Below are positions 4,397-51,705 of a DNA stretch of 64,000 nucleotides, piece by piece. A program made the position numbers and the translations under genes. Position 1 is the first letter of the stretch. Each line of letters opens with the position of its first letter. The notes below the pieces were generated by a model that had not been told where the DNA came from, did not search any database, and was given only the letters and a program-made list of their open reading frames with translations. Source of the DNA: Thysanoteuthis rhombus (taxonomy: Eukaryota; Mollusca; Cephalopoda; Oegopsida; Thysanoteuthidae); assembly GCA_963457665.1 (NCBI GenBank), contig OY735219.1, positions 39,364,477 through 39,428,476 of the forward strand. Direction: 5' to 3'.

Positions 4397-4414
4397 AAGT
4401 GTGTGTTATTAGGA

Positions 4415-4640
4415 AATGGATATATAATCCGACAGAATGATTATGAATTGCGTTATGTTATATAGAAACTCTTATTTGATATGATCATCAGTTATTACAT
4501 GGTGAACGTACCATTTGGCCAAAAGAATATAAATAGAATAAACAATTAAAGAAAATGGGACTGCTGCAGGAATCAAACCTGCAATCAATAGGGTAGCTGT
4601 TTTATCGTATTGATGCTCTTCAACAGCCGCCAGTAATGCA
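4415..4640 (-). repeat. tRNA-like SINE, copy 1
   Basis: On the minus strand the element carries a T-arm-like hairpin: TGCAGG, a 7-nt TTTGATT loop, then CCTGCA (B-box-like GGTTTGATTCC at 4569-4579). A shared body (TTTCTTTAATTGTTTATTCT, then GGCCAAATGGTACGTTCACC) and a tail ending near TAATCATTCTGTCGGATTATA follow. The same body recurs at 4828-5030, 33590-33770, 37860-38195 and 39662-39820. The A box is poorly preserved, so derivation from a specific tRNA cannot be stated. Confidence 0.7.
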
Positions 4641-4827: not shown

Positions 4828-5030
4828 CGCTGTGTTGAAGCAATTATCCTATTGGGTGCAGGTTTGATTCCTGCAGCGGATCAATTTTCTTTAATTGTGT
4901 ATTCTGTTTATGTTGTTTAGGCTAAATGGTACATTCATCGTGTAATAATGGGTGATCATTTTAAGTAAGAGTTTTTATATAATATAATGCAATTTATAAT
5001 CATCATGTCAGATCTCACATCCATTTCTTA
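4828..5030 (+). repeat. tRNA-like SINE, copy 2
   Basis: Contains GCAGGTTTGATTCCTGCAGC with the T-arm-like stem-loop (B-box-like core at 4861-4871), the TTTCTTTAATTGTGTATTCT body and the AATGGTACATTCATCG block. It is oriented opposite to copy 1. Confidence 0.75.
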
Positions 5031-26855: not shown

Positions 26856-27062
26856 TAGCGATGGATATCACGTCACGTCTCACAAGATGGATCCCCAGAG
26901 ATCACATTAGACACTGAGGCCGACAGAACACAAGATGGAGAGATGAACTGGACAGATTCAGGAAATACTGGCTACGTGACGCCCATGATAGAGAAATGTG
27001 GCGAATCCTGGGGAAGGTCTATGTCCTACGACGGACGTTAAAAGACTGATGATGATGATGAT
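26856..27062 (+). mobile_element. RTE-type LINE 3' end inserted in family 1 copy 11
   Basis: A 207-bp 5'-truncated LINE tail: GATCCCCAGAGATCACATTA, GGAGAGATGAACTGGACAG, CCATGATAGAGAAATGTGGC and GGGGAAGGTCTATGTCC. It ends in AAAGACTGATGATGATGATG. Family 1 sequence stops at GGGTAGCGAT and resumes at TAAAATGTCTGAATTTTC, so this is an insertion younger than the host repeat. The 3-nt GAT at the junction may be part of the target duplication, but the tail makes it ambiguous. Confidence 0.85.
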
Positions 27063-31197: not shown

Positions 31198-31224
31198 GGT
31201 TAAGCTAATAATGAAAAAATGTAT

Positions 31225-31325
31225 TATTTCTATTATTATTCAGAATATCCTCACCTTGGTTGTTTTTCATACAACGTTTTGGCCGTTGTACTCTACGGCC
31301 TTCATCAGGTATCATCTGGTAGGTG
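31225..31325 (-). mobile_element. PLE-like terminal repeat (family P2) with hammerhead-like core
   Basis: On the minus strand, CTGATGA (31308-31302) is followed by one A, then a perfect 6-bp stem GGCCGT/ACGGCC around an 8-nt loop, then AAAACGTTG where a hammerhead would have GAAAC. After it come TATGAAAAACAACC and AAGGTGAGGATATTCTGAAT. The last blocks recur as the arms of the histone H4 fold-back at 51077-51300. Confidence 0.55.
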
Positions 31326-31374
31326 TGGGGAAGTAACGAACCGAACCCTTTATTTAACCGACAGGGGTATATTG

Positions 31375-31500
31375 ACCGCACTCCACAATCAAGGCCGGCA
31401 AAGTATTAGATGGCGAAATGAGCTAGACAAATTCAGAAAGTACAGGCTCCGCAAAACCCATGATAGAGAAGTGTGGTAAATCCTTGAGAAGGTCTATGTC
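31375..31500 (+). mobile_element. RTE-type LINE 3' tail fragment
   Basis: Translation gives RWRNELDKFRKYRLRKTHDR, then EVW-stop, matching LINE tails such as 26930-27000. It stops at GAAGGTCTATGTCC and is followed at once by family 1 copy 14, so the (TGA)n tail is missing. Confidence 0.75.
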
Positions 31501-50160: not shown

Positions 50161-51070
50161 TGAAAGTGATGTCCCTTTTTTTTTGATTATCAGATAGTAA
50201 AAAAAAAGAAAAGGAAGGAATTCACCTTGATCTTAAATATCTTGAAATATATCTTATATATCATATCGAAGAAACTTCATGAGGATAGCTGTACCCTCTA
50301 TAAAATTCGTCATCCAAAACCTAACTTTTGCATGGTTTCCTACATTAGCTGCTAATGCTTTGAGCAAAGTTGCTTTTGATGTTACCAACAAGGCATTACC
50401 CACCTGCAAACGGAATTGATCAAAGAGAAATCAATGGTGCTGTTATAGCAGTGTCAGCCTTTCTAATGTAGAACTCAAATAATTTTACATAAAATCCTAA
50501 AAGGACTGTATGCATTCATGAGCAATTTCTTGAATGACATGTTTCTGACCAAATGTATAAATCCTTGACTTGGCTTAAAAGCAACCAGAAGCCTTCCTAC
50601 AGTTGAATGAAATACCCAACTCTTAACAATGATCCCACTCTTACAACCATCATACATGCGCACAAGGATAAATTTTACCTTGCTATGTACTCTATGCATT
50701 CAATATATTCAACATTTATTTCCTAGTATCATTATATGAATATCAAATTATTCCATCTACTTATATAAAATATCATGTGATGTTCTACATTTTCTATTCA
50801 TAACATTTGTCAAGGAGAAAATCATCAAATGCTAATCATAGAATAATCTCCTTATTTTGATCTCTTTTTGCCAATGCATAAAAAATCAGGGTTCATTCTG
50901 ATTGAACAAGAATAAAAGAAAGCTGAGCAACATTATGTTTTTGATATTTAAGTACAATTCAATTGCAAAATTATTTGAATAATGTCGTCATTTTATAGGG
51001 CATGGGTAAAGTAGAATCAGGTATGATATTATATTAGAAATTAGCATATCTCTGAATTTTTGAGATGAGG
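50161..51070. other. unannotated AT-rich DNA
   Basis: Nothing recognised. Confidence 0.4.
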
Positions 51071-51076
51071 TATTAT

Positions 51077-51300
51077 TATTATTTCTATTGATATTCGGAC
51101 CATCCTTATCTTGGTTGTTTTTCATACATACGCTTAACGCCACCCCTAGGAGGAGCTAAGTGTCATCGAAAAGTTTTACGTGACAACATCCGGGGGATCA
51201 CCAAGCCCACTATCCGTCATCTAGCCCGCAGGGGTGGCGTTAAGCGTATGTATGAAAAACAACCAAGATGAGGATGGTCCGAATATCAATAGAAATAATA
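51077..51300. repeat. Fold-back element with 71-bp arms enclosing histone H4 sequence
   Basis: Arms 51077-51147 and 51230-51300 are inverted copies differing at one position (T at 51107, left TCCTTATC versus TCCTCATC), with an 82-bp spacer. From outside inwards each arm holds TATTATTTCTATTGATATTC, GGACCATCC, then TTGGTTGTTTTTCATACA, then CGCTTAACGCCACCCCT, which is reverse-complement histone H4. The outer portion matches the PLE-like terminal repeat at 31225-31280. The element sits directly against the TTAGAAA end of family 1 copy 19. Near-identity of the arms suggests recent formation or gene conversion. Confidence 0.9.
51149..51249 (+). pseudogene. Histone H4 internal fragment
   Basis: Translated from 51149 the frame gives [16 protein letters not shown], then [17 protein letters not shown]. 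This is histone H4 from about Gly13 to Arg45 (initiator Met not counted). Differences from the canonical sequence are R17C, Q27R, A33T, R36H and I46M. All other residues match, including K16, K20, DNI, GITKP and RRGGVKR. The N-terminal tail and the rest of the histone fold (helices 2 and 3) are missing. There is no start codon, so it cannot make H4. The last 20 bases of the H4 piece are also present inverted in the left arm. After KR the frame passes into the PLE-like tail. The base composition is much less AT-rich than the surroundings. Confidence 0.92.
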
Positions 51301-51705
51301 TTAGAAATTGTCAAAGTAGGTTTCTTTAGTTTCCAAGTCAATCTGGTTGGTTAGCTAGTTGGCTTTGTAACATACGAACGAGCGACACAAATGACAATAG
51401 CATAATATTTGCCCCTTATTGTGTCAATAAAAAAAACTTTTTCTTTTCAGTTTCCCCATAAATAGGTTTTCAGGGGAGGGCAATTTGCAATGCAATTTCA
51501 TGCTAAATCGATCCCTTAGTTTGTGCTAGCATTCATACTTGCTTCTTTGAAATTCAGACTTGTTTTAGTGATCATTGCTCAGCAAAAATCAAGAGAAGTT
51601 ACTTATTCATTGATCAACCTGTTCTCCAATTTTTCTGATTAATCACCCGCAACATGGCATGCTGCCAAAAGATGGTTTCTGTTGAGTAACTAAACTGATC
51701 AGTTT
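51301..51705 (+). repeat. Family 1 repeat, copy 19
   Basis: TTAGAAATTGTCAAAGTAGG start, GTTTCTTTAGTTTCCAAGTC, TTCATGCTAAATCGATCCCT, AACATGGCATGCTGCC and a GAGTAACTAAACTGATCAG end. Its first base follows the H4 fold-back without a gap. Confidence 0.85.

Follow-up and report, generated by a model that had tools for sequence, protein, structure and literature searches.

A histone H4 fragment within a putative Penelope-like fold-back insertion of the squid Thysanoteuthis rhombus

The stretch of Thysanoteuthis rhombus DNA analysed here (the window; 64,000 nucleotides) contains a fold-back with histone H4 coding sequence at its centre. The fold-back is one retroelement insertion (51043-51297), with a 12-bp target duplication on either side. 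Its parts, and a related copy located elsewhere in the window, are as follows.

51031-51042, no strand: left target-site duplication ATATTAGAAATT (repeat search and flank comparison)
51043-51128, minus strand: long-type tail arm (84-86 nt) with its full outer end, matching family tail positions 1-86 (L001 1467-1552); by the open frame in the tail, the reverse complement of the putative first codons of a Penelope-like ORF
51128-51147, minus strand: short H4 copy, antisense, 20 nt, codons 40-46, its first base common to the tail
51147/51148: junction of the antisense and sense H4 pieces
51148-51249, plus strand: long H4 copy, sense, from Gly13 through the first two bases of codon 46 (E 5e-35 for query positions 72-173)
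51249-51297, plus strand: short-type tail arm of about 50 nt, from a match (L001 tail+ 1-55) that runs at its end into the duplication
51298-51309, no strand: right target-site duplication ATATTAGAAATT (repeat search and flank comparison)
31222-31376, minus strand: one-armed comparison copy outside the H4 insertion, comprising tail, hammerhead-like core and body

The two arms, taken as 51074-51147 and 51230-51303, pair with only two mismatches over 74 positions, and the predicted hairpin has a folding energy of -140.9 kcal/mol, compared with -51.9 +/- 4.5 kcal/mol in shuffled sequences (n = 200, z = -19.6). A first-pass annotation had described inverted arms of 71 bp with a single mismatch and inner 20 bp of H4 sequence. 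These arms (51077-51147 and 51230-51300) are indeed complementary at 70/71 positions, and their innermost 19-20 bp are H4, but the left arm extends a further 34 bp to 51043, making the insertion larger than first described. The insertion is unequal inside: the left arm, with its outer start at tail position 84, holds about 20 nt of H4, and the right arm, with its outer start at position 50, about 100 nt. These outer ends are the same as those found in the wider repeat family (see below). The switch from H4 to tail occurs at the identical base in both arms, with a one-base ambiguity from a single shared T. The site of the insertion is the edge of one copy of a dispersed repeat (family D6; 11 copies in the window, at 604, 5773, 7481, 8187, 17598, 24170, 30098, 31481, 45728, 51284 and 58357). 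The right flank touches this repeat, and no empty target site for the insertion could be demonstrated there, the repeat copies being divergent. The window also contains a separate inverted repeat (4410-4602 and 4838-5030) with 193-nt arms that are 81% complementary and 235 nt apart.

Comparison of positions 51152-51249 with an H4 gene of the C31 cluster showed identity at 91 of 98 bases, and all seven differences are transitions. Four of these are CpG to TpG or CpA changes (R17C, silent R23, A33T and R36H). R17C, Q27R, A33T and R36H had all been called in the first-pass annotation and are confirmed here, whereas the reported I46M consists of the first bases of the tail and is not a substitution. 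Both arms, and other H4 genes too, carry a silent change at V43, which was hence probably inherited from the source. The near-identity of the arms agrees with the earlier suggestion of a recent event, whereas the seven transitions, four of them at CpG sites, do not. The apparently greater age of the H4 part can, however, be explained by its CpG richness (10 CpG in 98 bases, versus 2 in 134 bases of the arms). It had further been proposed that more copies might exist, but a genome-wide search allowing up to three mismatches found the H4-tail junction in these two arms only. Likewise, among the listed H4 matches (40 of 665 candidates scored), no other crosses the boundary; they stop there. The source locus was therefore not found in this assembly, and the H4 insertion is the single case found.

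The outer arms had previously been matched to a repeat near 31.2 kb, and this similarity was recovered (31222-31273; 88% and 87% identity over 52 bp, E 6e-14 and 3e-12). The hammerhead-like core of that copy, whose right boundary with a LINE-like fragment was placed by eye, reads AAAA in place of GAAA. The stretch 31222-31485 passes from tail, mutated core and body directly into this fragment, which resembles a LINE 3' end and recurs in the window (e.g., at 26917, 35030, 56892 and 63709); the join is possibly another template switch. As had been claimed, H4 occupies the place of the ribozyme-like segment: in the H4 insertion, codons 13-46 replace everything upstream of the tail, standing for the hammerhead-like core and the part before it, between Penelope-like tails. 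The similarity to H4 stops precisely where the hammerhead cut is predicted, a position placed immediately before GUAUG from the core sequence (AUAC-CUGAUGA ... GAAACGUU/GUAU, the slash marking the cut). The insertion carries neither a hammerhead nor an ORF past the tail.

The tail belongs to an abundant repeat family. A 22-bp core of the arm occurs 8,991 times in the 2.73-Gb genome (4,523 and 4,468 on the two strands), and a full unit comprises, in order, a tRNA-like head, a body, a hammerhead-like core and the tail. We sampled 70 loci from the C1 set (66 distinct), 14 similar to the H4 insertion and 30 with unusual junctions, leaving duplicates (L035, L048, L052 and L055) and histone loci (L002-L007 and L022-L025) out of the family counts. 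The sampling is biased by design, as C1 loci were selected because one arm contained an exact 22-mer, L008-L021 because they resembled the H4 insertion and L096-L125 for their junction pattern. Arm-pair totals accordingly vary with criterion and sample (40 of 81 loci; 55; 74). A typical sampled member consists of two partial unit copies placed head to head, and 42 of the 66 distinct C1 loci are fold-backs with a qualifying arm pair, while 24 are not. One outer end lies near position 84 and the other near 50 in 68 of 74 pairs, with three pairs having both ends at 50 and three both at 84; smaller sets gave mixed pairs in 52/55 cases and, for the C1 subset, 39/42. If the ends were independent with p = 0.5, at least 68 mixed pairs among 74 would be expected with a probability of 1e-14. 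Inner ends, by comparison, are scattered (36 distinct combinations among the 39 mixed C1 pairs), as if each join were made anew; four loci (L014, L015, L017 and L021) have an identical inner junction. The longer arm starts at 50 in 28 of these 39 pairs and at 84 in 10 (one pair is equal), and the H4 insertion follows this commonest pattern, its longer H4 copy being on the 50-start arm. Flank matches of at least 8 bp near the ends, a few of them of low complexity or some bases off the ends, were found in 46 of 68 pairs versus 4% in shuffled flanks, after six of the 74 pairs had been dropped for insufficient flank. The matches are 77% A+T, and the length of the target duplication varies among members. 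One locus (L014:848-1525) holds a tandem array of roughly nine long-type tail units, with a period of 74 bp, and the centres of five others (L041, L042, L043, L061 and L071) carry an extra segment around CACCTGAGGTTTAAGGCTCC, in either orientation, that is absent from the main unit; members with this segment are a second subfamily.

We also compared the two arms within elements. Sister arms are closer than random pairs (4.6% versus 7.4% divergence over 40 pairs; 0 of 2,000 shuffles as low), and the mean percentile of within-element arm similarity is 0.28 (50 pairs), but a shared subfamily and age can also produce this closeness. In L014, L063 and L071, the two arms are further apart than almost any other combination of arms. 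Rare variants common to sister arms accounted for only 2 of 139 counts (0.97 expected), both from the two arms at one site in L097. Most rare variants are probably post-insertion mutations, hence they were uninformative on a one-RNA origin, and ordinary copies, whose sister arms almost never share them, are no proof of such an origin.

The tail, the hammerhead-like core and the layout of the ends all suggest machinery of the Penelope-like kind. An open frame runs through the tail and extends, in L099, to ...TLTNRYGPEIVKEWRRVERLYLKK; we take it, by its likeness, to be the first codons of a Penelope-like ORF. In one locus (L057) the tail is joined to a reverse transcriptase-like fragment (SLPKIHK..., DVVSLFTRVP...) with more decayed ORF pieces upstream; this fragment presumably resembles the Penelope reverse transcriptase. 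A Pfam scan of it (E up to 1) gave no match, and three unnamed relatives were likewise without a Pfam match when scanned. A GIY-YIG domain was not found, and the L057 fragment is at most an incomplete candidate for the autonomous partner. Inverted ends with about 34 nt of tail on one of them characterise 68 of 74 pairs and the H4 insertion; short duplications at AT-rich sites are likewise present (46 of 68 pairs; 12 bp in the H4 insertion). Penelope insertions are described in the available text of PMC3846280 as having an inverted pseudo-LTR with an optional tail of about 31 bp on one. Moreover, in work with a purified Penelope-like enzyme, both strands were cut and extended, and reverse transcription began at two internal sites that bound a 30-40 bp tail (PMC11167929). 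The 34-nt step between our ends fits both the Penelope tail and these two in vitro start sites (PMC11167929).

A hammerhead-like core (CUGAUGA-stem II-GAAAC-GUU/GUAU, with a 4-bp stem I) was recognised by eye in members, whereas Rfam gave no hammerhead, either in the window at the gathering threshold or, with E up to 5, in four members, and the hammerhead fold is absent from the computed minimum-energy folds. Rfam matches in those four members (E up to 5) were mostly of miRNA type, together with other sub-threshold matches, and a 5S-like match in the flank of L021 was just above threshold. For a SINE with a tRNA head, pol III box-like sequences were seen by eye, the Rfam tRNA model scored 21.1 bits in L021 (threshold 29) and ARAGORN (bacterial code) found no tRNA genes in six loci.

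Capture at the hammerhead end as a general rule was examined through a genome pattern of non-native bases immediately upstream of the predicted cut, and was rejected, since junctions across the genome are enriched at the cut modestly at best. The pattern had 354 matches. Among 100 listed, 70 were judged small indels of native sequence and 30 as other; shifted controls, unsorted, gave 92 matches at +2 (24 of one recurrent form) and 53 at +5. A modest site effect at the predicted cut is therefore possible. No clear peak of short-arm inner ends at the cut was evident in the C1 sample, where the ends are scattered. We inspected 30 junctions (28 of the 30 other ones and two native-like), the remaining two being the arms of L012. 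They comprised 17 fold-back joins, nine native-order changes, three with upstream sequence resembling a Penelope-like ORF and one one-sided insertion (L112), which starts at the predicted cut and is accompanied by a duplication of about 15 bp. By eye, neither these 30 junctions nor the 66 C1 loci contained a recognisable host gene. A separate feature of the 100 listed junctions is that 56 read AAAC/GTATG, a 3-nt deletion at the predicted cut, which may mark either a subfamily that is spreading or a scar left by cleavage followed by religation.

Taken together, we consider two-sided, target-primed insertion of a Penelope-like kind from a chimeric H4-tail RNA to be the best reading of the H4 insertion, with a probability of roughly two in three. 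The template would have been an RNA with histone H4 mRNA at its 5' side and, at its 3' side, an element tail starting at the predicted hammerhead cut. An AT-rich target would be cut on both strands, one target 3' end priming reverse transcription at about tail position 84 and the other at about 50, and each cDNA would run through the tail into H4. The 84-start cDNA would have copied only about 20 nt of H4 and the 50-start cDNA about 100 nt (codon 46 back to 13); joining of these unequal cDNAs head to head, with gap repair, would leave the fold-back and the 12-bp duplication. For the family pairs in general, extension of each strand from a different start site followed by joining of the cDNAs appears the simplest reading. 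A chimeric RNA probably served as template for both arms; it may have arisen by ligation, by read-through of a tail insertion that once lay in an H4 gene and has since been lost, or by template switching in a first cDNA. An attractive possibility is that a 5'-OH tail was ligated to an H4 fragment, as animal retrozyme RNAs were circularised well by RtcB in vitro, according to the available text of PMC7229834. A more specific proposal has one RNA molecule copied on both strands, by the enzyme at 84 and its partner at 50, the chimera having been made by an RtcB-type ligase; here the H4 tag acts as a barcode, its junction on both arms and nowhere else speaking for a single molecule, and the 5'-OH end left by hammerhead cleavage could have been joined to a broken H4 mRNA. 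We regard this combination as possible but rather doubtful. Evidence against its ligation half is that, in an Anolis Penelope-like element, ribozyme-dead mutants insert equally well in vitro and no RNA-seq reads begin at the cut (PMC11167929). The same in vitro work found the start sites to be alike on the top and the bottom strand, and thus offers no explanation for the strict 50/84 pairing (PMC11167929).

The main competing explanation was already implied by the first-pass annotation, which proposed capture by template switching or snap-back synthesis; retro-insertion with a target duplication stands, but snap-back is not favoured. Under snap-back, a cDNA started in the tail would switch to H4 mRNA, fold on itself and use its own H4 and tail as template; later loss of part of the palindrome centre would account for the unequal H4 lengths. 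A single event would thus account for the same H4-tail junction in both arms, which differ at only 2 of 74 positions, and self-priming is favoured for inverted Penelope-like ends on the basis of palindromes at inverted junctions in the available text of PMC3846280. The closeness of sister arms noted above would also suit it, though shared subfamily or age would suffice. However, self-copying does not explain why the second arm ends near 50, here and in nearly all family pairs; it is this 50-end that favours a chimeric RNA copied for both strands over a second arm copied from the first. Self-copying also requires an extra deletion, and it sits poorly with the unequal arms and mostly unique inner joins (36/39) of the family and with the few pairs that differ more than nearly all other combinations. 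We therefore consider it unlikely.

Fixed 50 and 84 ends would likewise result if the H4 insertion descended from an earlier H4 fold-back whose palindromic unit was transcribed from a constant start site at its 50-end and then copied by priming on one side only, at the 84-end; four loci do have one inner junction in common. Yet a second H4-tail junction is absent within three mismatches and nearly all C1 inner joins differ (36/39), rendering this origin improbable. An origin at the DNA level, whether as a fold-back or MITE transposon, by local duplication in inverted orientation or as an artefact of assembly, is very improbable. Inverted ends with a target duplication are superficially transposon-like, but a fold-back or MITE transposon was rejected, since the ends are unequal by about 34 nt in a nearly fixed way and duplication lengths vary. 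Moreover, the cores consist of incomplete copies of a single unit with many different join points, and the ends resemble the beginning of a Penelope-like ORF, while many dispersed copies with duplications argue against an assembly artefact.

On the preferred reading, two-sided priming from a chimeric RNA, the insertion shows a histone message entering the genome by a Penelope-like route. Histone mRNA normally lacks poly(A). If true, ligation of a cleaved tail to a broken mRNA would be a general route by which Penelope-like elements pick up host messages. The H4-tagged template can separate models with one RNA, two RNAs or self-copying, and the tag on both ends hints at simultaneous insertion from two sides. 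The family makes the completion of Penelope-like insertion and the origin of inverted ends countable: the insertions examined have one arm per start site, on opposite strands, and the genome holds thousands of further copies. That Penelope elements can capture host genes is already known, and it is the H4 tag as a template tracer that is new. Our literature search (titles and the beginnings of abstracts) found neither a histone H4 fold-back of this kind nor the paired 50/84 anatomy.

The squid family resembles endonuclease-containing Penelope-like elements in its inverted pseudo-LTR with an extra tail of about 30-40 nt on one end, its AT-rich targets with short duplications, its candidate hammerhead-type motif and the position of the tail at the start of the presumed ORF (PMC11167929 and the available text of PMC3846280). 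It differs from them in being short, high-copy and mostly non-coding, and in consisting mainly of two unequal head-to-head cDNAs. Gene capture by Penelope in Adineta vaga likewise placed host sequence between Penelope ends with a target duplication; the cases given in the accessible part of PMC3846280 are an LRR gene and an NRPS gene with introns, the latter lying between two pLTRs in direct orientation, with one more that is inverted. In the H4 insertion, by contrast, about 100 nt of histone coding sequence is fused upstream of the tail and the fusion is present in both inverted arms. Metazoan retrozymes, as presented in the available text of PMC7229834, are similarly short, non-autonomous and equipped with hammerheads, with Penelope-like elements suggested as their movers, but they form tandem repeats with circular RNAs, whereas the squid elements are dispersed fold-backs and only the tail unit of L014 shows tandem repetition. 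Finally, a processed pseudogene made by a LINE would share the RNA-derived host sequence and the target duplication, but this class was rejected, as the H4 insertion has inverted Penelope-like tails at both outer ends rather than a LINE tail or poly(A) at one.
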